The notes beneath the pieces were generated by a model that did no database searches, was not told the DNA's origin, and saw only the letters and a list, made by a program, of their open reading frames with translations. Below are positions 2,637-18,004 of a stretch of 64,000 nucleotides of DNA, in pieces; the first letter of the stretch is position 1, and every line of letters begins with the position of its first letter. The DNA comes from Terriglobia bacterium (GTDB taxonomy: Bacteria; Acidobacteriota; Terriglobia; Terriglobales; Acidobacteriaceae), in contig JAIQFT010000024.1 of the NCBI GenBank assembly GCA_020073185.1, positions 1 through 64,000 on the forward strand, written 5' to 3'. Both the position numbers and the translations under genes were made by a program.

Positions 2637-4661
2637 ATGGCGAGACAAAAAGCGATTTGGGAATGGAAGATCGTGCGCCGCGCGATCTGGGACGCAATCG
2701 TGAAGCTGAACCCGCGCAAGATGATGGGCAATCCCGTTATGTTTGTGGTGGAAGTGGGCAGCGTGATCACCACCGTGCTGCTGTTCCGCGGCGGCACGGC
2801 CTTCAAGTTCAACCTGCAGATCACGCTGTGGCTCTGGTTCACCGTACTGTTCGCCAATTTCGCCGAGGCGATGGCCGAAGGACGCGGCAAAGCCCAAGCG
2901 GACACGCTGCGCAAGGCCAGGGCGGAAACGGTCGCGAACCGTTTGCTCGCTAACGGGCAGATAGAAAAAGTACCCAGTTCCAAGCTGCGTGCCGGGGACA
3001 TGGTCCTGGTTTCTGCCGGCGAGTTCATTCCCTCCGACGGTGAGATCACCGAGGGCGTGGCTTCGGTGGATGAATCGGCCATCACCGGCGAGTCCGCTCC
3101 CGTGATCCGCGAATCCGGCGGGGACCGCTCTGCCGTGACCGGCGGCACGCGCGTCCTTTCCGACCAAATCAAAGTCAAGATCACCTCGAACCCGGGTGAG
3201 ACCTTCCTCGATCGCATGATCGCCCTGGTGGAGGGCGCCGAGCGGCAGAAGACACCCAACGAGATTGCGCTGAACATTCTGCTGGCGGGCTTGACAATCA
3301 TCTTCCTGTTAGCGGTGGTGACCTTACAGCCGTTCGCGATTTACTCCGGCTCGCCCCAGACCGTGTTTGTGCTGGTATCGCTGCTGGTGTGCCTGATCCC
3401 GACCACCATCGGGGGCCTTCTGTCCGCCATCGGCATTGCCGGCATGGACCGGCTGATTCAGCACAACGTGCTTGCCATGTCCGGGCGTGCGGTGGAGGCG
3501 GCCGGTGATGTCAACACGCTGCTGCTCGACAAAACGGGAACCATCACACTGGGCAACCGGCAGGCCTCGCGCTTCATTCCCGCGCCCGGTGTTACCGAGC
3601 AGGAACTGGCGGATGCCGCCCAGCTTTCCTCGCTTGCCGACGAGACTCCGGAAGGCCGCTCGATTGTCGTGCTGGCCAAGGAGAAATATGGCCTGCGCGG
3701 ACGCGAGTTGGGAAAGCACGAAGCGGAGTTCGTGCCCTTCTCCGCACAGACGCGCATGTCGGGCGTGAACATGAATGGCTTCCAGATCCGCAAGGGCGCG
3801 GTGGACGCGATCGCCAACTTTGTCAAGCAGGGAGGCCGCGACTTCCCGGTTCAGGTGCAGGCTAGCGTGGAGCAGATCGCCCGCGCCGGCGGTACGCCTC
3901 TGGTGGTGGCGGAGAAAAGCCGCGGCGCGCTGGGAGTGATCGAGCTAAAGGACATTGTCAAGGGAGGCATGAAGGAGCGCTTTGACCAGCTTCGCGCCAT
4001 CGGCATCCGCACCGTCATGATTACCGGCGACAATCCGCTGACTGCTGCCGCCATCGCGCGCGAGGCCGGCGTGGATGACTTCCTCGCGCAAGCCACTCCC
4101 AAGGACAAGATGGATCTCATCAAAAGCGAGCAGGCGGGCGGCAAGCTGGTGGCGATGACCGGTGACGGCACCAACGACGCCCCGGCGCTGGCCCAGGCCG
4201 ATGTGGGCGTGGCCATGAATACCGGCACGCAGGCCGCAAAAGAGGCCGGCAACATGGTGGACTTGGATTCCAACCCCACCAAGCTGATCGAGGTGGTGGA
4301 AATCGGCAAACAATTGCTGATGACGCGCGGCGCCTTGACCACGTTTTCCATCGCCAACGATGTGGCCAAATATTTCGCCATCATTCCGGCGATGTTCGCC
4401 GGCACGTTCCCGGTGTTGAACGCGCTCAACATCATGCACCTGCAGACACCGCAGTCGGCGGTGCTTTCGGCCGTAATCTTCAACGCGCTGATCATCATCG
4501 CGCTGATTCCGCTGGCGCTGCGCGGCGTGAAGTACCGCCCCATGGCCGCCGCGGCGCTGCTGCGCCGCAATCTCTGGATTTACGGGGCGGGCGGAATCAT
4601 TGTTCCGTTCATCGGGATCAAGCTGATTGACATGCTGATCTCCAGCGTCCGTCTTGCATAG
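2637..4661 (+). CDS. kdpB: KdpB, P-type ATPase catalytic subunit
   Basis: This 674-residue P-type ATPase is the ATP-hydrolysing subunit of KdpFABC. The phosphorylation motif DKTGT lies near residue 298, the actuator motif TGES near 150, and the hinge motif [15 protein letters not shown] near 507. Transmembrane segments frame the cytoplasmic domains as in other KdpB proteins. A short gap separates it from kdpA and kdpC, so translation is probably coupled. Length is normal and no key residue is missing. Confidence 0.98.
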
Positions 4662-7766: not shown

Positions 7767-8291
7767 CTACTTGTCCGGATGGAACGACGCGATGAGCTGA
7801 TCGAATTTCTGCCGATTGGCGGCGATGGTCTTGGCCGGGCCGGTGAACTTGACGAACAGGTTGCCGTCCGAACCTTCGAGAATCGCCCCGAGCAGGCGAT
7901 AGTCCGCGACCGCCGGCTGAGCGGCAAGCGGACCGCCCATCCCGGAGTACGTGCCGGACGTGTCAATCGTGGTGATGGTCAATCCCTGCATCGTCCGCTT
8001 GGCGACCTGCGCCACTGCGGGTTTTCCGTCCGGCGCGCGGAACTGATCCTTCCACCGCTCGATGTTGGCATCAACGCTCCCGCCCTGGCCCGCGCCGAAG
8101 AAGTAGATGGCGCATTCGGCGCCGATCTTGTCCCCGGGTGCCGGCGCGACCGCGTACGTGGCCACCCGCATCGGGCGAGCGCCTTCGTTCTTCCAGCCAG
8201 CCGGGGCCGTCCAGCGCATGCCGGCGGCCGATTCGGCGACCACGGCAACCGATGTCACCGACAGCAACAGGAACACAATGAGTGTGCGCAT
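7767..8291 (-). CDS. Secreted protein of unknown function
   Basis: The chosen start gives MRTLIVFLLLSVTSVAVVAES, a good signal peptide. The open frame continues upstream to 8390, but that part is charged and lacks export features. The mature part (about 150 residues) starts with MRWTAPAGWKNE and ends with a phrase typical of small secreted acidobacterial proteins (TGPAKTIAANRQKFDQLIAS). No catalytic motif is visible. It converges on the gene ending at 7723. Confidence 0.7.
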   Translation of the reverse strand: MRTLIVFLLLSVTSVAVVAESAAGMRWTAPAGWKNEGARPMRVATYAVAPAPGDKIGAECAIYFFGAGQGGSVDANIERWKDQFRAPDGKPAVAQVAKRTMQGLTITTIDTSGTYSGMGGPLAAQPAVADYRLLGAILEGSDGNLFVKFTGPAKTIAANRQKFDQLIASFHPDK

Positions 8292-8487
8292 GTCGCAAGT
8301 ATACCGGCTCACGAATGGGCCGCGTTTCTCATCGTGCGCGGCTCCTTGGTAAGTCGCGTCCCAAGGAAGCCCAAGCGCATCCTTTTTCACTGATGGATTT
8401 CGTTCGGCTCGGAGGTATTCTATCGGACCGGGCGGGTAATTCTCGTAAGCTCATGGCGATCCTCCCCCAAGCGAGGAAACTTCAAGA

Positions 8488-8850
8488 ATGAAGCTCCGCA
8501 TTCTCTCCCTTAGTGCTGACCAGGAACTCACCCTGCTGCGCAAACGTGTTCTGGAATCGGCAGGACATGAAGTGCTCGCGCCGCTGTCGGACAAAGCAGC
8601 GCTGGAAGCTGCGTCCGGTGAGAACGGGTTCGACGTTGCCATTGTCTGCTACCGCATGTGGCCCGGAAAGGCGCGGCGAGTCATGCGCATCTTCCGCGAA
8701 CACAATCCCGAGGGAAGGTTTCTCGTGATGGTGCGGGTGTATGGGGAAGTGCCCGAGCTTGAGGGTGATCGCTACGTCGTCGGCGCCGATGGGCCAGACG
8801 CGCTCCTGCGTGTGCTGAATGAAATGCAGATACCCGGTAAAGGCATCTGA
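8488..8850 (+). CDS. Degenerate single-domain response-regulator receiver
   Basis: The 120-residue product has the alternating beta/alpha pattern of a CheY-like receiver (MKLRILSLSADQELTLLRKRVLESAGHEV). The acidic pocket is missing: SAD replaces the DD pair, and the phosphoacceptor strand reads DVAIVCYRMWPG, with no aspartate where LD-x-x-MP is expected. The switch lysine is also not evident. It is therefore probably a phosphorylation-independent pseudo-receiver. No output domain is present. It converges with the TfuA gene. Confidence 0.75.
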   Translation: MKLRILSLSADQELTLLRKRVLESAGHEVLAPLSDKAALEAASGENGFDVAIVCYRMWPGKARRVMRIFREHNPEGRFLVMVRVYGEVPELEGDRYVVGADGPDALLRVLNEMQIPGKGI

Positions 8851-8890
8851 GCCAGCGGGAAGGGAGCGGACACGGGCGGAGATGGCATCA

Positions 8891-10321
8891 TCAAGAAGGT
8901 GCACCACCGGCGCCGGAAGTCAGCGAGGCATCCTGTCGAGGTCGCGCCCCTCTTTGCCACTGCGACAGACTCGGTGCCTCGACGCTTTGATTGGTTAAGT
9001 AACAATACTCACGCAGGACTGCGCGTCGCAGGCTCATTTCGTCTTCGAAACCGCATTCGCGCGCGTAACGGGTCACATCCCCGGGTACCGGCTGGCCCAG
9101 GCGCTCTTCGAAGTACCAGCGGCATAGATCGTCCCACGGCACTCCCACCTCGGACAGGCTGGGATTCTGCAGCCCGACCGACTCAAGCGCGCGCTCCTTG
9201 TCGCCGGCCCGTGCCGCGAGCCGGTCGTACTCGCCCGTCATGAGCAACTCGTCGACAATCCGGCTGTCCACGTCCGGCACTCCCCAGCTCTTGGTCAACT
9301 GGAGTAGCGCCTCCTCCTTCAGCATCCGACTAAACGTTTCGATGGTCAGATCATGCTCGGTGAGCCAGCGTTGAAAACGCTTCAGGTCCGCCAGATCGCG
9401 TTTGTCCCGCCACCGATCGCCAGTCTCCTGGAGCTGCTCGGCGCTGAGCAAGATGTTTTGACGAGAAGCCTCGGTGGCAGCCAGGAAACGCACCAGCGCG
9501 CCTTGCGCGACGCGCCGGTACGAGGCTTCGATTTGCATCTCCTCGCGCAGGGTGGTGGGAAGCACGGTTGACCCGCCCTTGGCACTCTCCAGCGCGCCCG
9601 GCATGGAGCTTGCGACATGCCAAATGTGTGTGTTTTCCACCGGGTAGGAGACGCGCTTGGGAGTCAATCCCGCTGCGATGCGCTGCTGCATGATTGCCAG
9701 CATCGCGCGCGCATCCTCCCGTTTCTGGTCCACCTGACCGGTCGGCAGCCACTGCTCCAGGGCGCACAACTCCGCCGCCGGCAATCCATGCAGATGCGCC
9801 TGTCGGAGCACTTCCGGATAGCACCGCTCCGGGTAGAAGAGAGCCTTGGCGATTCGGAGCAGAGCCTCTAGTGAAGCTGCAGAGATTGCGCCCGTCGCTT
9901 GGGCCTTCTTGAGCGTAATTCTGATGTTGACCATGGCCTCCGATGCCAGGCGATACCCCGTGTCTGGGGGGCCATGTCTTACCGCGACCTCGTCGTCATC
10001 CTCCAGTTCGCCGCTGCGGAACGCCTCATAGACGGCGCCCACGCCTTCCATGCCGAAGGCCTCCAGTTCAACCGCGCGTAGCGCTCCCATGCTGGCGCTG
10101 CCAAACACGTGAATCCCATTCTTCATTGCCCAGAGGATCTCTTTGTGCCAGACCGACGGGACGCGTTCGAAGTAGCCGTCGATGATGCCGATCGCGCAGG
10201 GCTGCTTGCGAGCGGCACGGTACACGTCTCCCTGCGAGACCGGCGGCAGAAACACGGCATCCAGGTACTCTCGCGCCTGCTCAGGCGGCAAACTTGGGCC
10301 GGTGAAGACGTAAACACTCAT
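8891..10321 (-). CDS. TfuA-domain protein, YcaO partner
   Basis: The first 230 residues carry the TfuA core: VYVFTGPSLPPEQA, then AIGIIDGYFERVPSVWHKEI and GIHVFGSASMGALRAVEL. TfuA proteins act with YcaO enzymes in backbone thioamidation, in thioviridamide-type peptides and in methanogen McrA. They are thought to deliver or activate sulfur. The remaining 240 residues are helical and rich in charged residues and match no domain I recognise; they could recognise substrate. The ATG overlaps the YcaO stop by 4 nt (ATGA), so the pair is translationally coupled. It is the last gene of the operon. Confidence 0.9.
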   Translation of the reverse strand: MSVYVFTGPSLPPEQAREYLDAVFLPPVSQGDVYRAARKQPCAIGIIDGYFERVPSVWHKEILWAMKNGIHVFGSASMGALRAVELEAFGMEGVGAVYEAFRSGELEDDDEVAVRHGPPDTGYRLASEAMVNIRITLKKAQATGAISAASLEALLRIAKALFYPERCYPEVLRQAHLHGLPAAELCALEQWLPTGQVDQKREDARAMLAIMQQRIAAGLTPKRVSYPVENTHIWHVASSMPGALESAKGGSTVLPTTLREEMQIEASYRRVAQGALVRFLAATEASRQNILLSAEQLQETGDRWRDKRDLADLKRFQRWLTEHDLTIETFSRMLKEEALLQLTKSWGVPDVDSRIVDELLMTGEYDRLAARAGDKERALESVGLQNPSLSEVGVPWDDLCRWYFEERLGQPVPGDVTRYARECGFEDEMSLRRAVLREYCYLTNQSVEAPSLSQWQRGARPRQDASLTSGAGGAPS

Positions 10322-11559
10322 TGCTTCACTTCCATATGGGCAAGGGCACGCCGGCCATAACGGCAGTTTGGCACCACGCCTTTGGCTTCCAGACCGGGAA
10401 TGATGACTCGTGCCACCGGCAACCCAAATTCCGGCTTGGTCAGATCCACCACGAAAACGTGTTCAATGCCGATGCCCTGCAATCGCTTTAGTTCCCAGGC
10501 TACATCGCCATCGAGGGTATCTCCCTCCCAGGTCGGGACCTTACGGAAATCGCGACTTGGGGTGCCAGTGGCGAGCCGTTGCCGCAGGCCGTCGATAGCC
10601 TCGGGTGACATCGCCCGGTCATACATCGTACGAAACAAATCGTCGCGCGAGCCGGAGATGCAGGCGGCACGACTCTGGGCGGCCTCGGTCAGGGCGCGCA
10701 ACAGGGCGACCTCGCGTGCCGGATGACAGCCCGAACCACCGGCGGAATACAGGTCACGCAAGCCCTTGCTCTCCCGATCGACAATGCCGCATTCGAAACA
10801 GGGAAGCCCAACGTCGGTGGTCGATTCCCACACCCCAACTGTGACCCCCGCTTGCTCGTATTTGTCGAGCACCTCACGGCAACCTGGATCGTCGACTGTG
10901 TCCGGATCGATGCGCCGCCTGTCGCGCTCCTCCTCGGACAGCAGGAAGAACAGAGTTGTGGCATCCCGCTCGACGACCTCGCAGATGGCGTGGCTGATTG
11001 CCTCCAGCAAATGATTGCCGGAGGCTAAACCGTTGGATGAGGCCGCAAAATTTCCCGGACACAATGTCTTGTCCACGGTGTAAATCGTGTGCACCAGCTC
11101 GTAGGGCAGCCACACCGGCTCCTCGGCGAGAAGGTCGAAACCTTGTATCCACAGCAGCGGACGATCATGGTGGAAGAGGCAGGGATCCTCGCGCGCCATC
11201 TCCGCCACATCCGCTAAGCGGTGGGTCCGGCTCAGCTCAGCGTAGCTGTCGTACTTCAGAGGCAGAGTGGTCAAATACTCGGCGTGATAGCCCTCGACCG
11301 ACTCCATCAGGCCCGAAGCTTTGGCTGCCCACAAGTCCAGCCCCTTGCCTTGCGACACGGCTATGGATCGCGAGTTGGGCCGCACCACCATCACCACCGG
11401 AACGCCGATGCAGTCCAGCCCAGTTACGTCGGCAATCCGAGTGATCCCCATGCTCGCCATGAACGGGCGAACTCGCTCGACAGTCTCTTGCGGCGAGACC
11501 AGTCGGTGCGTGCCTGCGCGGTATGCCTTGGCAAGACCGGGAGTTAAGGATGTTGCCAT
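10318..11559 (-). CDS. YcaO cyclodehydratase/thioamidation enzyme
   Basis: The 413-residue product has the YcaO ATP-binding elements in order: GLMESVEGYHAE near residue 85, AISHAICEVVERDA near 190, and ALTEAAQSRAA near 290. YcaO proteins use ATP to activate a backbone amide, giving azolines, amidines or thioamides. Pairing with TfuA favours thioamidation. The C-terminus ends HMEVKQ and lacks the proline-rich PxPxP tail of azoline-forming YcaOs, which also fits the TfuA class. It starts 5 nt after the radical SAM gene and overlaps TfuA by 4 nt. Confidence 0.93.
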   Translation of the reverse strand: MATSLTPGLAKAYRAGTHRLVSPQETVERVRPFMASMGITRIADVTGLDCIGVPVVMVVRPNSRSIAVSQGKGLDLWAAKASGLMESVEGYHAEYLTTLPLKYDSYAELSRTHRLADVAEMAREDPCLFHHDRPLLWIQGFDLLAEEPVWLPYELVHTIYTVDKTLCPGNFAASSNGLASGNHLLEAISHAICEVVERDATTLFFLLSEEERDRRRIDPDTVDDPGCREVLDKYEQAGVTVGVWESTTDVGLPCFECGIVDRESKGLRDLYSAGGSGCHPAREVALLRALTEAAQSRAACISGSRDDLFRTMYDRAMSPEAIDGLRQRLATGTPSRDFRKVPTWEGDTLDGDVAWELKRLQGIGIEHVFVVDLTKPEFGLPVARVIIPGLEAKGVVPNCRYGRRALAHMEVKQ

Positions 11560-11564
11560 GCTTT

Positions 11565-13622
11565 CTATCCCTCTGTCGCTTTGCTGTCCGACTCAGGTCC
11601 GGACTCGACCCGCTCTGATCCGAGCAAAAGCCCTAGCATAGCTCGTTCTCTAGGGGTTAGCGCGCCGTCCCAGGCGTGCAGCTTCTCACCCAGTGCGCAG
11701 AGTTCGCTTTCATCCAACTCGATTCTCTTGCGTTCCGCGTCTTCGCGCTCGCTGGATCGCTGCGGCGGCAACGCCAGGGCGAGGTAACGGCCATCGGCTT
11801 TCGCCACCAGGCGCAACTCCATCCAGCGGCGCAGCAACGTCTCCACCTCCGCCTCCGTCCGCCCCAACTCGGCGGCCTCCTCCACCAGCGCCCTCCACGA
11901 GTGGTACCGATCAAGGAAGAGGTAGAGCGCCCGTTCTACTCCGCCCAGTCGCATCGTACGCTGAAGCGCTCCGACGCGATCATCCTGGATCGTGAGTGTG
12001 TTGCCATCGTCCCTGTGGATCAAACCGCTGCGGTTGGCATTCGCCTCCCAAGCGGCGACCGCTTCTTGAAGTCCGACGGTATAGGTGGAGGGATCGCGGC
12101 CGTCCGCGTAATCATGCTCGAAGTAATAAGCAAGGTTCGCCAGCTCGCTCTCCGGCAGGTCGTAGACGTAAGCGTACGACCGGTCGCAGCGCACGTTGCA
12201 CAATCCAAACTGCTCGGGATTGACGAAAAAGGGGCTAAACCGATCCACCCGGACAGGCCCGCACCCCTGCGGTGGCTCCAAGTGGTGCAGGCCAGCAATC
12301 AGCGAGACCATTTCTTCGTACTCGCTGGATTCCTCCCCCGGAAGCCCATACATTAAGTTCCAATTGCATTTCACTCCGAATTGCTTGCACCACTTCAGCA
12401 ACTCCACGTTCTGCAACGCAGTGGTACCTTTGCGGATCAGACTCAGCACGCGCGTACTGAAGCTCTCGATTCCGGGCTGAATGGTCCTAACCCCGGCCTC
12501 GCGGAGTAACGCCACCTGCTCCTTCCGCAGGTTCGCTTTGGTCTCGTAGAAGATATCGAGGGCAATTCCGCGCTTGATGAGTTCGGGAAACAAGTCGTGG
12601 AAATACTGCATGTCGAGAATGTTGTCGACCATTTCCACCTTGGGAGTTTGATAACGGGTGGTCAGCGCGATGATCTCATCCAGCGCCCGCTGCCAGCTCT
12701 TGACCCGATACTGCATGGAAAGCCCGTTGAGGCCGCAAAACGTGCAGTGCGCCTTCTCTCCCCACCAGCATCCGCGCGACGTTTCCATCAGCACGTGCCC
12801 GGAGCCTTCCGCAATCGGAGCACGGTTCTCCTCCGCGAAGTAGTCGTCATAGTCGGGATAGGGAAGCGTGTCCAGGTCCTTCACACGCTCCGGATGCAGG
12901 CTGGAAAAATAGCTGGTGCCGTCCTTGCGTGAGATCACGCCGGGAACGCCGTGTACGTCTTGCCCAGTGCGCATCCGCTCCAGTAACTGGGGAAAGCTGA
13001 TGTCGGCTTCGCCACTGCAGACGAAGTCAATCGCGGGAAATGAGCGGTGGAGTTGCAGTCCCATCGCACCTTCGCAGTTGGCCCCACCGAACACAATCGG
13101 GAGCTTTGGGTAGCGTTGCTTGACGCGCTGAGCCAGAGCCAGGGAGGGCAGATTCTGGGTGAAATTGGTGGTGAATCCCACAATGTCGTACGCTGCCCAG
13201 TCCACGGCGGCCATGCACCCGTCTAGAAATGCCGGCGCGGCATCGCGCGCGCGGCGCAGCTCAGCGAAGAACACGTCCTCTCTTTGGTGGAGCCACGGCC
13301 GATAACGCCCACCCAACATCTCCAGAAAATCGCGCTGGCGTGCCCCTGCTCCATCAAAGACGCACCCTGAGAATATCCAGTCGCCGATCAGGGCTTCCGG
13401 TGGGCTGAGCCAGGCCACGGTTTGGAAGAACTCATTCCCATGGCGTTCCGCATAGCGCAAGTTGAGGTAGAGCACCTCACTCGCGAACCCCACGCGCTGC
13501 AAAAGCGCTTTGAGCAGGCTGACGCCCATGGCGGGGCGGATGGAGCCAAACGGCATGTTAACGAAGAGCACTCGCACATCAGTCCCGCCGACTGCGCACA
13601 CTACAGACACCGGCCCAGGCAT
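11565..13622 (-). CDS. B12-binding radical SAM RiPP maturase (RiPP maturation radical SAM protein 1 type)
   Basis: An N-terminal cobalamin-binding-like domain (VRVLFVNMPFGSIRPAMGVS) precedes a radical SAM domain with CWWGEKAHCTFCGLNG near residues 284-298, a C-x7-C-x2-C cluster motif typical of this RiPP maturase family. Family members are predicted C-methyltransferases or other radical modifiers of ribosomal peptides. The last 60 residues include ELCALGEKLH and LTPRERAMLGLLL, which resemble the leader-like half of the small peptide encoded just upstream. The true start may be the GTG of VRVLF near 13574 rather than 13622. It lies 79 nt after the precursor gene. Confidence 0.92.
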   Translation of the reverse strand: MPGPVSVVCAVGGTDVRVLFVNMPFGSIRPAMGVSLLKALLQRVGFASEVLYLNLRYAERHGNEFFQTVAWLSPPEALIGDWIFSGCVFDGAGARQRDFLEMLGGRYRPWLHQREDVFFAELRRARDAAPAFLDGCMAAVDWAAYDIVGFTTNFTQNLPSLALAQRVKQRYPKLPIVFGGANCEGAMGLQLHRSFPAIDFVCSGEADISFPQLLERMRTGQDVHGVPGVISRKDGTSYFSSLHPERVKDLDTLPYPDYDDYFAEENRAPIAEGSGHVLMETSRGCWWGEKAHCTFCGLNGLSMQYRVKSWQRALDEIIALTTRYQTPKVEMVDNILDMQYFHDLFPELIKRGIALDIFYETKANLRKEQVALLREAGVRTIQPGIESFSTRVLSLIRKGTTALQNVELLKWCKQFGVKCNWNLMYGLPGEESSEYEEMVSLIAGLHHLEPPQGCGPVRVDRFSPFFVNPEQFGLCNVRCDRSYAYVYDLPESELANLAYYFEHDYADGRDPSTYTVGLQEAVAAWEANANRSGLIHRDDGNTLTIQDDRVGALQRTMRLGGVERALYLFLDRYHSWRALVEEAAELGRTEAEVETLLRRWMELRLVAKADGRYLALALPPQRSSEREDAERKRIELDESELCALGEKLHAWDGALTPRERAMLGLLLGSERVESGPESDSKATEG

Positions 13623-13701
13623 AGAGCCTTATCCGTGCCTTAAAGCGCCAGGATCGATCTCGATCAGATAGGGAGGCCGCTCAGCGATGAACTCGCTAAC
13701 C

Positions 13702-13983
13702 TCACTTTTCCACGAAAGTGCCTTTGATCTTGATAGAGATGGTTGGAAACGACATAGCTGCCTGCGGGCCGCCAGAACCCTTCTCTGGGCTGTACCCCTG
13801 CTCGTCATACTTCATGCCGTAGGCTTGGACTTCGCCACCCTTGGCCGCTTTGGCGGCGTTGTCCAGCACGTCGGTAAGGAAGGCATTCTCCTTCGGGCTA
13901 AGGTTGCCGCCAAGGGCCTTCAGCTTCTTTGCCAGCTCGGAAAACTCACGTTCGGTATACGGCTCCTGCCGCTCCTGAGTCAT
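13702..13983 (-). CDS. Candidate RiPP precursor peptide
   Basis: This 93-residue peptide is the first gene of the minus-strand operon, with AAGGAG 7 nt before its ATG and a strong promoter 49 nt further upstream. Residues 1-48 form a charged helical leader-like region (ELAKKLKALGGNLSPKENAFL). The rest is short and polar with Gly-Gly at 49-50 and GSGG at 69-72, then a tail AAMSFPTISIKIKGTFVEK. There is no cysteine, so thiazole formation or lanthionines are unlikely; backbone thioamidation or C-methylation remain possible. The precursor role is inferred from size and position and is not proven by homology. Confidence 0.75.
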   Translation of the reverse strand: MTQERQEPYTEREFSELAKKLKALGGNLSPKENAFLTDVLDNAAKAAKGGEVQAYGMKYDEQGYSPEKGSGGPQAAMSFPTISIKIKGTFVEK

Positions 13984-14031
13984 CGTCGTTCTCCTTGCGC
14001 TGCCCCCACATCCTGGGCGAACGAGACGCGT

Positions 14032-14060
14032 AATCTAGACTAGCTCCGTCTGCCTGTCAA
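14032..14060 (-). promoter_or_regulatory. Sigma-70-type promoter of the RiPP operon
   Basis: Read on the minus strand, TTGACA (14055-14060) is followed after exactly 17 nt by TAGATT (14032-14037). The -35 box is perfect and the -10 box matches 4 of 6. A transcript would start near 14025, leaving about 40 nt of leader before the precursor ATG at 13983. It points away from the MFS gene, so the region is a divergent intergenic control segment. Confidence 0.65.
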
Positions 14061-14135
14061 GGAGTGCAAGGGCCCTACGCTGAATCGCTCATCGGTTATG
14101 TAAAGTGCATTATCATTGCGCACCCAGGGGAATCC

Positions 14136-15404
14136 ATGACCTCTACGCCGGCTGCAGCTCCATCCCAGCCTGCAGTCCACCCGCTCAAGATCGGGTACTT
14201 CCGCACTCTGTGGATTGTCGCGACGGTCTCGCTGCTCGGCGACCAGTTTTTTCTGGTGGCCTTGCCCTGGCTGGTGCTGAAGCTGTCCGGATCGAGCCTG
14301 GCGCTGGGGACCATTCTCATGGCGGAAGCGGTTCCGCGGGCCGCGCTCATGCTGGTGGGTGGAGCAGTCACCGATCGGTTCCTGCCGCGGAAGGTGTTGA
14401 TCGCGACCGGCGCGATAAGAATTGTGCTGGTGGCAGCCATCGCCGCACTCACTGGGCTGGGAGTGATTCGGCTGTGGCACATCTACGTGTTGGCGTGCGC
14501 CTTTGGGGTTGCCGATGCTTTTTCGTCTCCCGCCAGCGCGGCACTGCTGCCCTCCCTGGTGCGGCCGGAGCAGTATGCAGCCGCCGACTCCATGCTTCAG
14601 GGCAGTGCGCAACTGACCACGATGATCGGACCGGCCCCTGCTGGATTGGCCATCAAACGTTGGGGTCTGGCGCCGGCCTTCTGGATCGATGCGGCCAGCT
14701 TTCTGGGTCCAGTTTTGGCGTTGCTGTGGATGCCGGATCAGCCGCTCCAACCAGGCGCGCCTGCAGCGGCAGCCCAGACTGTCGCACCGGCGATTGCTGC
14801 CCCGCCTAGCGTGCTGCGGTCGATCGCCGACGGGTTGCGGTATGTCGTTCAAGATCCCTCCCTGCGACTGCTGTTTGTCGTCTCAACCGTCTTGAACGTG
14901 TGCGTTGCCGGGCCGCTCGCGGTGGGGCTGGCGGCTATGGCCAACTTCCGTTTCGGATCGGCGGCGGCTTACGGGATCCTGCTCTCCTGTTTCGAAGGTG
15001 GCGCGCTGGCCGGCATGATCCTGGCGGGTGCGCTACCGCGCCTGTGGCACCGTGGTTGGCTCTTGACCGCGCTGACCTTCGCCACCGCGTTCGACCTGTT
15101 CGGTTTGGCGATGGTTTATCGGCTGGTCGCAGTGGGCGCATTGCTGGCGGTGATGGGCCTGAGTGCAGGCTTTGTGAACATCCAGATCATGTCGTGGATA
15201 CAGTCACAAGTGCCCCCGAATATGCTCGGCCGTTTGATGAGCGTCCTGATGTTCTCGGCGGTGGGCTTGACCCCCATCTCGTTCGTGCTGGCAGGAGCGG
15301 CGGCCGGGGCGCATCTGGCGGCGATGTACTTGGTGGCCGGGGCGCTTGTCCTGCTAACGGGGGCCGCGATGGTGCTCACCGGGGCCAGCAGAGCCATCAC
15401 GTAA
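14136..15404 (+). CDS. MFS transporter, probable exporter
   Basis: The 422-residue product has about 12 hydrophobic segments and the MFS loop-2 motif GGAVTDRFLPRKVL near residue 75. It resembles the enterobactin-exporter/MFS_3 group of drug and siderophore exporters. The ATG at 14136 follows CAGGGGAATCC and precedes a short hydrophilic N-terminus; the longer frame from 14064 is less likely. It is divergent from the RiPP operon across a 150-nt region, so it may export the mature peptide. That substrate link is inference from position. Confidence 0.88.
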   Translation: MTSTPAAAPSQPAVHPLKIGYFRTLWIVATVSLLGDQFFLVALPWLVLKLSGSSLALGTILMAEAVPRAALMLVGGAVTDRFLPRKVLIATGAIRIVLVAAIAALTGLGVIRLWHIYVLACAFGVADAFSSPASAALLPSLVRPEQYAAADSMLQGSAQLTTMIGPAPAGLAIKRWGLAPAFWIDAASFLGPVLALLWMPDQPLQPGAPAAAAQTVAPAIAAPPSVLRSIADGLRYVVQDPSLRLLFVVSTVLNVCVAGPLAVGLAAMANFRFGSAAAYGILLSCFEGGALAGMILAGALPRLWHRGWLLTALTFATAFDLFGLAMVYRLVAVGALLAVMGLSAGFVNIQIMSWIQSQVPPNMLGRLMSVLMFSAVGLTPISFVLAGAAAGAHLAAMYLVAGALVLLTGAAMVLTGASRAIT

Positions 15405-15447
15405 GCTAGATGGCAAAGCACAATGCCGGGTGCAATCCCGCCCGCTA

Positions 15448-15477
15448 TTGACAACGCTAACCGGGGTGGGGTATCAC
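15448..15477 (+). promoter_or_regulatory. Candidate promoter of the GAF-domain gene
   Basis: TTGACA (15448-15453) and TATCAC (15472-15477) are separated by 18 nt. The -35 is perfect and the -10 matches 4 of 6. It lies within a possible GTG-started N-terminal extension of the downstream frame, which argues for the ATG at 15511 as the real start. Confidence 0.4.
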
Positions 15478-15510
15478 GACCCGCAGAGCACCGCGGAAAA
15501 ACAAACCCTC

Positions 15511-16380
15511 ATGCCAGGAGGCGGACGGACGAAACGCCAACGCGCACAACCTCAGAAACGGCGTCGTGGCGCGCGCAAGGCCACATTCGTCCAGGAGTTG
15601 CGGCGGGCCATGAGCTTGGGGGCATCCGCCAACGTCATTGCCGCACCGGTTGCGCAATCCCAACTGCTGGAGATGATCGTTCGCACCGCGAGCCGCGTGA
15701 TCGATGCGCGCGCCGCTTCGCTTTGCCTGCTCGACGAAAGCGCAAAAGAGCTGGTATTCGAGGTGGTTCAGGGCGAGAAAAGCGAGGAGCTGCGCAAGAT
15801 CAGGGTACCGATGGGCCATGGCATTGTTGGACTGGTCGCCGCCACCGGGCAGGCCATGGCGATATCGAATGTGGGGAGCGATCCACGTCACGCCGCCGAC
15901 GTTGCTCGTCGCGTCGGCTACATGCCGCAGAGCATCCTTGCCGTGCCACTCCTTTATGCGGACCGCGTCATCGGTGTCCTCGAACTTCTGGACAAGAATG
16001 GAAAGGAATCTTTTGGCGCAGCCGACCTGGAGACCCTGGGCCTGTTCGCGAACCAGGCAGCCATCGCCATTCAGCAGTCACGCGCCCAGACTTCAATCAC
16101 CTCCATGCTGATGCAATTGATTTCCGCCTTCGGCCCGGTCTCACCCGGGCGCCAGCGAGGGATCGAGAAGGCGGCAGCCGCGGTTGCGCGAGACGTAAAC
16201 GATCCTGCGCACCGCCACGCCATGGAGTTGTCGGGGCTGATTCACGAGATCGTGCAATACGGAAACGGCGAAACCGCGGCCTGTCGCGCTTTGCTGGAAA
16301 GTTTCGCGAGCTACCTTCGGTCTCGCCTGGCCGGCGGGCCGCGGCGAGCCTCCGCCGACGGCGCCCTCCGCCGGTCCTGA
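15511..16380 (+). CDS. GAF-domain protein
   Basis: After a basic N-terminus (KRQRAQPQKRRRGARKA) comes a GAF domain, about residues 50-200. Recognisable pieces are SRVIDARAASLCLLDES, VPMGHGIVGLVAATGQAM, ISNVGSDPRHAADVARRVGY and SILAVPLLYADRVIGVLEL. GAF domains bind small ligands or mediate dimerisation. No kinase, cyclase or DNA-binding output is visible; the C-terminal 90 residues are helical. The last 70 nt overlap the end of the convergent subtilase gene, so one of the two C-termini may be over-extended. The frame is open from a GTG at 15430. Confidence 0.8.
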   Translation: MPGGGRTKRQRAQPQKRRRGARKATFVQELRRAMSLGASANVIAAPVAQSQLLEMIVRTASRVIDARAASLCLLDESAKELVFEVVQGEKSEELRKIRVPMGHGIVGLVAATGQAMAISNVGSDPRHAADVARRVGYMPQSILAVPLLYADRVIGVLELLDKNGKESFGAADLETLGLFANQAAIAIQQSRAQTSITSMLMQLISAFGPVSPGRQRGIEKAAAAVARDVNDPAHRHAMELSGLIHEIVQYGNGETAACRALLESFASYLRSRLAGGPRRASADGALRRS

Positions 16381-17225
16381 GTGCCGCCGTCGACACTGCG
16401 GCGTGCATTGCGAGCCGATGCGCGGAGCAGCGTCTTTACCTCGAATGGAGTCAGGTGCGGGTGCTTGCTGCGCAGCAAAGCCACCAGGCCGGTAATGTGG
16501 GGAGCGGCAAAGCTGTTTCCCGTGGCCGTAATGTAGCCGCCGCCCAACCATCCCACGCGGACGTTAATGCCGGGCGCTCCGAACTCCACCGGGGGAGAGG
16601 GATTACACCAATAATTGAGCACGTCGTCGTCGCTCGCGCCCTGATAGCAGGCCACGGAAATGACGGGTGCATACAGTGAGGGAGCGCTGAGCACCCGCAT
16701 GTTGTTGGCAGCGGTTACCAGAACCGTGCCACGGTAATAGGCTTGGTCGACCAGCTCGTAAAGTAGGTGGAAATAGTCCCGGACGGTTGTGCCCAGGCTA
16801 AGATTTACTACGTGCATGCCGTTCTCGACCGCCCACCGCAGCCCCTCGGCGAAGCTCTGCGCGCGCCCCACCAGGCCGGCGCCCAGCACTCGCACGCTGT
16901 AAAGCTCGGCCTCGGGCGCGATGCGATGCACTACCCCGGCGCATGCCGTCCCGTGCCCGAATGCATCCTCGTGTGGGGCGGTTTTAATCGTGAGCCCACC
17001 GTCTTCGCCGAATTCGGGTTCCACCCAACCGCGGACTGCGCCGGCCACCGCCGGGTGGGCATTGTCGACACCGCTGTCGACAATGGCGACCTTGACTCCG
17101 CGCCCAGTGCTTCCGCCGAAAACCTCCTCCGGAGTCGCCGATTCCAGGAACGGCGCGGTCTCGACAAAAGGGGTGGTCCCGGAAGGATCCTCACCCCAGC
17201 TCCATGCTGGCTCCATGTTCGCCAT
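16311..17225 (-). CDS. Subtilisin-like (S8) serine protease without signal peptide
   Basis: The catalytic triad is visible: Asp50 in AIVDSGVD, His91 in HEDAFGHGTACAG, and the serine in TGNSFAAPHITGL near residue 240; the oxyanion asparagine is in TAANN. At 304 residues it is a minimal S8 protease with no signal peptide and no prodomain, so it is likely cytoplasmic. Cytoplasmic subtilases cut leader or recognition sequences in some RiPP pathways, such as cyanobactins. Its position beside the YcaO-TfuA operon suggests leader removal here; that is inference. The basic last 35 residues overlap the GAF gene and may be spurious. Confidence 0.9.
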   Translation of the reverse strand: MANMEPAWSWGEDPSGTTPFVETAPFLESATPEEVFGGSTGRGVKVAIVDSGVDNAHPAVAGAVRGWVEPEFGEDGGLTIKTAPHEDAFGHGTACAGVVHRIAPEAELYSVRVLGAGLVGRAQSFAEGLRWAVENGMHVVNLSLGTTVRDYFHLLYELVDQAYYRGTVLVTAANNMRVLSAPSLYAPVISVACYQGASDDDVLNYWCNPSPPVEFGAPGINVRVGWLGGGYITATGNSFAAPHITGLVALLRSKHPHLTPFEVKTLLRASARNARRSVDGGTQDRRRAPSAEARRGPPARRDRR

Positions 17226-17330
17226 CGTGCGGAGAGTTTAGCACCGCTGCAACCCATCGTTGCTCGCCGTCGCTCTACGACGATGCTGCTGGCGACCGGT
17301 ATAGGATTTTCTGTATCGGTACCTGGGTGG

Positions 17331-17350
17331 CGCAGGCCTTTAGGCCTGCG
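17331..17350. repeat. Intergenic GC-rich palindrome with TTTA loop
   Basis: CGCAGGCC (17331-17338) and its complement GGCCTGCG (17343-17350) enclose TTTA. There is no T-run, so it is not an obvious terminator. It belongs to a group of short GC-rich hairpins with four-base loops found elsewhere in this window (25526-25545, 43395-43418). Confidence 0.6.
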
Positions 17351-17425
17351 GAAAAGCCATTACCATCATTCCGGCTTCAGCCGCTGAGGTACATGAGAGG
17401 GCCACTACACTATCTCGAATCCGTT

Positions 17426-17689
17426 CTAAGCCGCTTTCTCCGTGGAAGTCCGCAGACACGACGTAACCTCGTCGAGGACCTTCTCGTAGTCAGCGGTCAT
17501 GGCCCGTTCCACATGAATGCGGGCGCCCTTTACACCCGCTTCTTGCGTCAGCCGCTTAAAGTCAAACTGAAGAAAATTTTCCACTTGCTTCGGCGTCAGG
17601 AACGCGATGGTGACAGTGGCCGACTGGCCTGTCGAGGTCTCGATCTTCACCGAGTACGGGTATTCAGTCTGCTGCGTTTCCGGGGTCAT
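17426..17689 (-). CDS. Small protein of unknown function next to the RiPP locus
   Basis: An 87-residue frame starts MTPETQQTEYPYSVKIE. AGGAGG stands 5-6 nt before its ATG, the best ribosome-binding site in this region, so translation is likely; the open frame extends upstream but without such a site. The first half is beta-rich (ATVTIAFLTPKQVENFL) and the second half alpha-helical. It is transcribed toward the subtilase gene about 200 nt downstream. It could be a partner, immunity or recognition protein, or unrelated. No family is recognised. Confidence 0.6.
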   Translation of the reverse strand: MTPETQQTEYPYSVKIETSTGQSATVTIAFLTPKQVENFLQFDFKRLTQEAGVKGARIHVERAMTADYEKVLDEVTSCLRTSTEKAA

Positions 17690-18004
17690 GCGACACCTCC
17701 TCTTAAGCGACGAAAGGTGGCGGGAGAATCGGCGCTTTGTTGATCGACAAGAGTGGCGGGAAATGAATCTGTCAGATTTTAGCGCGACCCGCTGCATGAG
17801 TGGTGGTGCAGGAATCAAAAAGAGCAACCGTGCAGCAACCATCCAATGATCGGGATTATTATCCGGCTTCACCCGTGAGTTTCAGGCCCATAGCCTTGGT
17901 TAGGGCGACTAATCAACAGTGGCCCCAGACCTCGGAACCAGGACTGGAACGCTTGCGCCGTGCCTTGAGAACTAAACCGTAAAGGAACCGAAGCACGCAG
18001 GTCG
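17690..18004. other. Intergenic region without a recognisable gene
   Basis: The 315-nt stretch lies between the small gene starting at 17689 and the 3' end of the TonB receptor. Short frames in it show no coding character or ribosome-binding site. It presumably holds the promoter of the small gene, but I see no convincing -35/-10 pair. Confidence 0.4.

Follow-up and report, generated by a model that had tools for sequence, protein, structure and literature searches.

The locus described here lies near the start of the window, a stretch of 64,000 nucleotides (positions 1 to 64,000 of contig JAIQFT010000024.1, assembly GCA_020073185.1) from a Terriglobia bacterium of the Acidobacteriaceae, and was analysed as a candidate gene cluster for a ribosomally synthesised and post-translationally modified peptide (RiPP). 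It encodes a 93-residue peptide (pep93), a B12-type radical S-adenosylmethionine protein (rSAM), a YcaO–TfuA pair, a major facilitator superfamily (MFS) transporter, a GAF-domain protein and a subtilisin-type S8 protease (Table 1). Transcription on the minus strand runs from pep93 through rSAM and YcaO to TfuA, with gaps of 79, 5 and −4 nt. MFS is divergent from pep93 and is followed by GAF on the plus strand and then S8 on the minus strand. The original prediction, made from the sequence of this stretch, had placed the peptide, rSAM, YcaO and TfuA on one strand, with 5 and −4 nt behind the maturase, and had put a divergent MFS exporter and an S8 protease beside them. Every gene it named was present, both gaps were exact, and its wider claim of a RiPP-type locus combining YcaO–TfuA with a B12-type rSAM is well supported. 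The three enzymes and S8 all retained their motifs. Across the whole genome assembly there was one YcaO, one TfuA, three ThiS-family matches and four TIGR03975 matches, one of which was above the cut-off.

Table 1 Features of the candidate RiPP locus, with their positions in the window and the basis for each assignment.
Feature	Positions	Strand	Basis or remark
TfuA	8891-10321	-	476 aa; PF07812 161.3 bits
TfuA C-terminal extension, residues 218-476	8894-9670	-	all-helical in model
YcaO	10318-11559	-	413 aa; PF02624 269.9 bits
B12-type radical SAM protein (rSAM)	11565-13622	-	685 aa; TIGR03975 666.9 bits
rSAM tail segment, residues 638-663, pep93-leader-like	11634-11711	-	ungapped alignment, score 52
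pep93, candidate precursor, 93 aa	13702-13983	-	codon usage, AAGGAG, directly upstream of rSAM
pep93 leader segment, residues 11-36, rSAM-tail-like	13876-13953	-	sequence alignment
Promoter-like match TTGACA-17-TAGATT	14060-14032	-	just upstream of pep93
MFS transporter, likely exporter	14064 or 14136 (alternative ATG) to 15404	+	PF07690 88.6 bits
GAF-domain protein	15430-16380	+	PF01590 E 2.9e-20; 70-nt overlap with S8
S8 (subtilisin-type) protease, 304 aa, likely leader protease	16311-17225	-	PF00082 114.7 bits
All-or-none block	8852-17425		TfuA, YcaO, rSAM, pep93, MFS, GAF, S8

The adjacent ycaO and tfuA genes overlap by 4 nt, and their products matched PF02624 and PF07812, respectively. 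Residues 1–217 of TfuA constitute the TfuA domain, which in the predicted structure (pLDDT, the predicted local distance difference test, 84.3 overall) nearly superposed on TfuA of M. acetivorans (6xp8; template modelling score 0.93 by target length, 40% identity). S77 and K200 were invariant in 17/17 aligned rows and form a candidate Ser–Lys pair. This invariance is in keeping with the Ser–Lys pair described for TfuA, together with the chemistry of YcaO–TfuA, in PMC13185837. The extension beyond the TfuA domain was also alignable in three other loci (L145, L148 and L133). It matched TIGR04500 weakly (23.7 bits versus 180), and no fold match beyond the TfuA domain was found in the PDB at E 0.001. 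The best solved relative of YcaO was MJ1094 (6pe3). Against models for the thioamidation of McrA, YcaO scored 230.3 bits (TIGR03266, cut-off 365) and TfuA fell just short of the cut-off (NF033432, 224.4 bits versus 235.2).

The rSAM protein matched the whole TIGR03975 profile at a score far above the cut-off of 281.85. Its cysteines C285, C293 and C296 fit the C-x7-C-x2-C motif given in the original prediction and were invariant in all 47 rows of our rSAM alignment (A4), so this spacing is the family's own. The closest folds to the predicted structure (pLDDT 89.6) were OxsB, TsrM, TokK and CysS, all of them cobalamin radical SAM enzymes. Residues 534–602 were predicted, with high pLDDT, to form three strands and then three helices; RiPP recognition element (RRE) domains are described as a three-stranded sheet plus three helices (PMC10635010). 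PqqD was not matched by the window rSAM and was matched by one of 47 relatives (E 0.064). NCBI names TIGR03975 the RiPP maturation radical SAM C-methyltransferase family, and from this name C-methylation is the most likely reaction, with other radical reactions possible. An enzyme that performs different radical chemistry, such as a C–C crosslink, would change the chemistry of the proposal and nothing else. The closest rSAM relatives (50–52% identity) do lie in clusters without an assigned product, but the family name speaks against such a reaction, as does ApyD, a B12-type rSAM that acts on a RiPP and methylates Tyr (PMC10635010). The argument from ApyD has its limit, as the window rSAM scored 88.7 bits against the ApyD model, far below the cut-off of 750. 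On balance we regard a reaction other than methylation as unlikely.

An AAGGAG motif stands 7 nt ahead of the pep93 ATG, and the pep93 frame was the best of six when scored by the codon usage of nearby long open reading frames (ORFs) (−3.90 versus −4.18), much like its neighbours. The original prediction had also placed a promoter here. A TTGACA-17-TAGATT match does precede pep93, but the region held 2 such sites against 2.0 expected by chance, so only its position favours it. From a reading of its sequence, pep93 most likely begins with a helical leader, continues through a linker rich in Gly and Ser, and ends in the core. The peptide matched nothing in NCBIfam at E 0.1 and nothing in Pfam better than E 0.07.

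Comparison with a genus-mate indicated that these genes behave as a single unit, either all there or all missing. Contig C138 of genome G001 aligned to window positions 8369–8851 and 17426–17843, with 63 bp between the two, and the intervening 8.57 kb is an all-or-none block. Of three genus-mates, G001 alone showed this empty site; contiguous flanks were not obtained from the remaining two. The block gives independent support, and the strongest found, for the membership of the MFS exporter and the S8 protease, which the original prediction had offered as inference. The motifs VDSG, GHGT and GNS occur in S8 at residues 49, 90 and 236, its score against the QhpE model was 107.5 bits (below the cut-off of 165), and its N-terminus, read by eye, suggests that the protease may be cytoplasmic. 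The right end needed correction: the original prediction ran to 17689, whereas the 87-residue ORF at 17426–17689 falls beyond the block and persists in block-less G001, which excludes it from the locus. This ORF was also considered as a second precursor and was rejected, since it lies outside the block and was kept beside the empty site. No TfuA was found in the three genus-mates, G001 among them, which favours a gain of the block in this lineage over repeated losses. GC content gave no support for transfer (0.619 in the block, 0.609 and 0.615 in the flanks).

Two further observations concern the right edge. The 87-residue ORF recurs in genus-mates at several sites, G001:C226 and G002:C9 among them, with a DNA identity of ~90%, and its NCBIfam and Pfam matches included nothing worth naming. 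A dispersed repeat, which has many incomplete copies across the four genus genomes, occupies window positions 17299–17428 and may be connected with the arrival or departure of the block.

Beyond what the original prediction had noticed, the C-terminal tail of rSAM resembles the N-terminus of pep93, a likeness we hold with moderate confidence. Residues 619–685 of rSAM extend past the family profile, and within them the segment listed in Table 1 aligned to the pep93 leader without gaps. The score of 52 was reached by 2/20,000 shuffled tails and 3/20,000 shuffled peptides, and when the whole enzyme was compared, by 4/3,000 and 2/3,000 shuffles. Among 5,547 segments of 67 residues from the loci, a set in which the same place was present three times, the tail scored best. 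A second test did not depend on the choice of peptide. Each rSAM tail of at least 25 residues in alignment A4 (22 of the 47 proteins; 25 left out) was compared with every small ORF up to 4 kb away. The window tail found its best match among 82 neighbouring small ORFs in pep93, and 1/200 shuffles did as well, while at the other 21 loci 9 to 199 of 200 shuffles were as good, none being as extreme as the window. A profile of tail and leader, run over the whole genome, found only those two places, as it must by construction. At the DNA level, tail and leader agreed at 18, 17 and 10 of 26 sites for codon positions 1, 2 and 3, respectively; the low agreement at the third position suggests that the likeness is old or kept by selection rather than a recent copy.

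A serious possibility, though one we lean against, is that this likeness arose by chance or reflects a generic, functionless helix-turn-helix pattern. Only 26 residues are involved, the likeness was noticed before it was tested, and phmmer searches with pep93 over 8,146 ORFs returned rSAM at just E 2.8. The same third-position agreement offers no sign of recent copying, and the tail was modelled at low confidence (pLDDT ~31–63). However, few shuffles reached the score in any of the four comparisons, the tail ranked first among the locus segments, and the test over 22 tails selected pep93 from its 82 neighbours with no equal at the other loci.

Taken as a whole, we consider it probable, with considerable room for doubt, that positions 8852–17425 form a self-contained RiPP cluster in which pep93 is the precursor, thioamidated by YcaO–TfuA, modified by rSAM (most likely by C-methylation), cleaved by S8 and exported by MFS. 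Under this scheme, pep93 would be held by its helical leader, YcaO would activate a backbone amide with ATP, and TfuA would release sulfide from thiocarboxylated ThiS to yield the thioamide, a chemistry taken from PMC13185837 and PMC7581889. The B12-type rSAM would modify the core, after which S8 would cut off the leader and MFS would export the product. That both enzymes act on pep93 is inferred, as are the type of radical reaction, the positions modified and the functions assigned to S8, MFS and GAF. The reading draws on observations: the tight gene order, the strong family matches, the unity of the block, the three ThiS-family genes and the predicted folds, with the TfuA domain nearly superposing on 6xp8, its S77 and K200 invariant, and the rSAM model matching cobalamin radical SAM enzymes. 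It draws further on the leader–tail likeness, pep93 alone of the 82 neighbouring small ORFs matching the rSAM tail well, and on a published cluster (std) uniting YcaO–TfuA, an S8/S53 domain and an MFS permease (PMC13174530).

Several findings weigh against this interpretation. The match of rSAM to PF02310 (28.6 bits) was below the Pfam gathering score of 32.1, and one study discarded cluster calls based on TIGR03975 as likely false positives (PMC9426513), a concern weakened here by the YcaO–TfuA neighbours. The position and coding signals of pep93 are good, but a convincing homologue was not found anywhere we searched: neither in viral contigs (pattern scan) nor in plasmids (tblastn), nor among the 8,146 locus ORFs, where phmmer matched pep93 to itself and the next-best hit had E 2. 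A profile of the leader, run over 396 genomes of the phylum, found nothing beyond weak matches in 3/395 other genomes (E 0.002–0.01 per genome), and these sit in open frames of 284–463 residues. Moreover, a locus with the enzymes in the same order (L130, genome G782) had no pep93 homologue, and at the YcaO–TfuA relatives L010 and L145 the small ORFs upstream differ in type.

The missing homologues could mean that pep93 is no precursor at all, with the real substrate elsewhere or the cluster decaying. Against this, the start signal and codon usage of pep93 match those of its neighbours, it stands ahead of rSAM and is linked to the rSAM tail, and the motifs of the three enzymes and S8 are intact, so that we judge this explanation distinctly unlikely. 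Slightly less remote, but still unlikely, is a division of labour in which pep93 is a substrate of rSAM only and the target of YcaO–TfuA is some other peptide or a folded cell protein, much as McrA is the target of the archaeal pair. The best NCBIfam models of YcaO and TfuA are those for McrA thioamidation, albeit both below cut-off, the small ORFs at L010 and L145 are of a different kind, and the tail likeness ties pep93 to rSAM, its best scores with YcaO and TfuA being 34 and 32. Yet YcaO and TfuA follow directly behind rSAM with almost no spacing, and the pair shares one all-or-none block with pep93.

The small ORFs directly upstream of YcaO–TfuA at L010 (9662–9949) and L145 (3225–3551) come from two phyla and have DGxLYxxP in common, perhaps the leader of that YcaO–TfuA group. 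As a general leader this motif was rejected, as it was not found in the small ORFs of the window.

Returning to the proposed cluster, the rSAM tail allows a more speculative extension, which we put forward as a tentative idea that is unlikely to be right. The enzyme may carry a built-in copy of the leader, so that tail and leader could dock on one partner (the extended TfuA, YcaO or the RRE-like domain of rSAM) and thereby unite thioamidation and radical methylation in one complex; alternatively, the tail could hold rSAM closed until the precursor displaces it. The product would then be a small peptide that combines a thioamide in its backbone with a C-methyl group. Since the closest rSAM relatives are found in operons with a proline-rich precursor-like protein, methylation might fall on the proline of AMSFPTIS in pep93. 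A leader-like maturase tail, if true, would shed new light on how a single peptide attracts unrelated enzymes.

We further investigated how common the pairing of rSAM with YcaO–TfuA is. TfuA occurred in 4/396 genomes of the Acidobacteriota and TIGR03975, counted at E ≤ 1e-60, in 26/396, with both present in G000 and G420, on separate contigs in the latter. Of the 25 other rSAM genomes, 22 were covered, with 26 regions in all (G151, G088, G101 and some further matches were left out); these contained no TfuA match and one distant YcaO match (G132). Conversely, no rSAM match was found beside five other Acidobacteriota TfuA loci in the stretches examined. Neither YcaO nor TfuA was found near any of 16 rSAM relatives taken from titled records; TfuA occurred elsewhere in two of those 16 genomes. 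In the Xanthobacteraceae, the family of locus L014, TIGR03975 was present in 20/391 genomes. Of the 20 neighbourhoods examined (a further partial match in G790 was left out), one, in G782, repeated the gene order of the window from rSAM through YcaO to TfuA, the last again with an extension. In the Myxococcota, the phylum of locus L013, TfuA was present in 11/282 genomes, and in one of these 11 (G856) an rSAM gene was divergent beside YcaO–TfuA; the stretches from G856 and G1047 begin at contig ends. As G782 was found via rSAM and G856 via TfuA, these figures are not co-occurrence frequencies.

The original prediction had proposed a search for co-occurrence of precursor, rSAM and YcaO–TfuA, and had held that relatives whose neighbourhoods lack the peptide would count against it. 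The enzyme pairing indeed recurred in G782 and G856. In G782, the one other locus found with this gene order, pep93 had no homologue and a different, 58-residue ORF takes its place, so that the result named as refuting was obtained in part. The rSAM proteins of the window, G782 and G856 did not form one clade (approximately unbiased test, P = 5.7e−6, on a quick tree in which L130 has a long branch). The YcaO tree was weakly supported and, on that side, leaves room for the pairing to have originated just once. According to the rSAM tree, on which the claim of separate pairings is based, the combination arose more than once from separate rSAM lineages. This suggests that thioamidation and B12-radical chemistry are modular and compatible.

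The related loci showed features of their own. L130 (2276–10091, G782) also encodes a methyltransferase, a cupin/JmjC-type protein and a DUF6445 protein, and its 58-residue ORF (8589–8765), at the place of pep93 and unlike it, is a possible precursor. L147 (261–4329, G856) comprises TfuA, YcaO and the divergent TIGR03975-type rSAM, and a clear precursor could not be picked out. At L071 (2850–8481), an rSAM gene lies beside a distant YcaO relative (24% identity), with an ORF rich in Cys-Val/Gln repeats (8077–8481) and another (2850–3602) that is nitroreductase-like by eye; its gene content is perhaps that of an azole-type cluster. L075 (4505–17820, G080) contains five rSAM proteins of the TIGR03975-type family within ~13 kb. 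The closest rSAM relatives of the window came from Microvirga, Hamadaea and Nannocystis (L011:5245–10001, L012:5444–6163 and L013:6149–7785). These loci start with a precursor-like protein that has a helical leader, a long proline-rich tract (part of which reads N in L011) and a conserved C-terminus, and that in L012 weakly matched PF14407 (19.5 bits versus 48). A TP_methylase-type protein comes next, and L011 additionally has an Stf0 sulfotransferase, a 2OG (2-oxoglutarate) oxygenase and a short-chain dehydrogenase. Together these loci look like the source of a modified polyproline peptide across three phyla.

The original prediction had called the combination undescribed. This does not hold, as gene cluster families with YcaO–TfuA and a B12-binding rSAM were reported from Bradyrhizobium and Desulforegula by Malit et al. 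2021 (PMC8120280). A characterised small-peptide product of YcaO–TfuA plus a B12 radical SAM enzyme was not found among the papers that our searches listed. The clusters of Malit et al., predicted to yield thioamidated RiPPs, have both near a predicted precursor, like the window; there, however, the precursors are described as CCRG-2-like or Nif11-like, whereas pep93 had no family match at the thresholds given above. The std cluster of Streptomyces thermodiastaticus shares YcaO–TfuA, the S8/S53 peptidase domain and the MFS permease with the window, but has a multinuclear non-haem iron-dependent oxidative enzyme (MNIO) and a carbamoyltransferase in place of the radical SAM enzyme, and another precursor (PMC13174530). 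ApyD resembles the window rSAM as a B12-type rSAM whose substrate is a RiPP precursor; it makes β-methyltyrosine and is stated to contain an RRE. Besides the low score of the window rSAM against the ApyD model, YcaO–TfuA is not among the apy enzymes named in the excerpt of PMC10635010. Bottromycin likewise derives from a RiPP cluster with YcaO proteins and radical SAM C-methyltransferases (PMC5103208); its two YcaO proteins, macrocyclic amidine and thiazole set it apart from the window, with one YcaO genome-wide plus TfuA. Finally, McrA of methanogens carries thioglycine together with C-methylated Arg and Gln (PMC7581889); there, as proposed here for pep93, a single polypeptide is the target of both YcaO–TfuA and cobalamin radical SAM methylases. 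In that system the substrate is a folded enzyme subunit, and the YcaO and TfuA of the window both score below the cut-offs of the McrA models.

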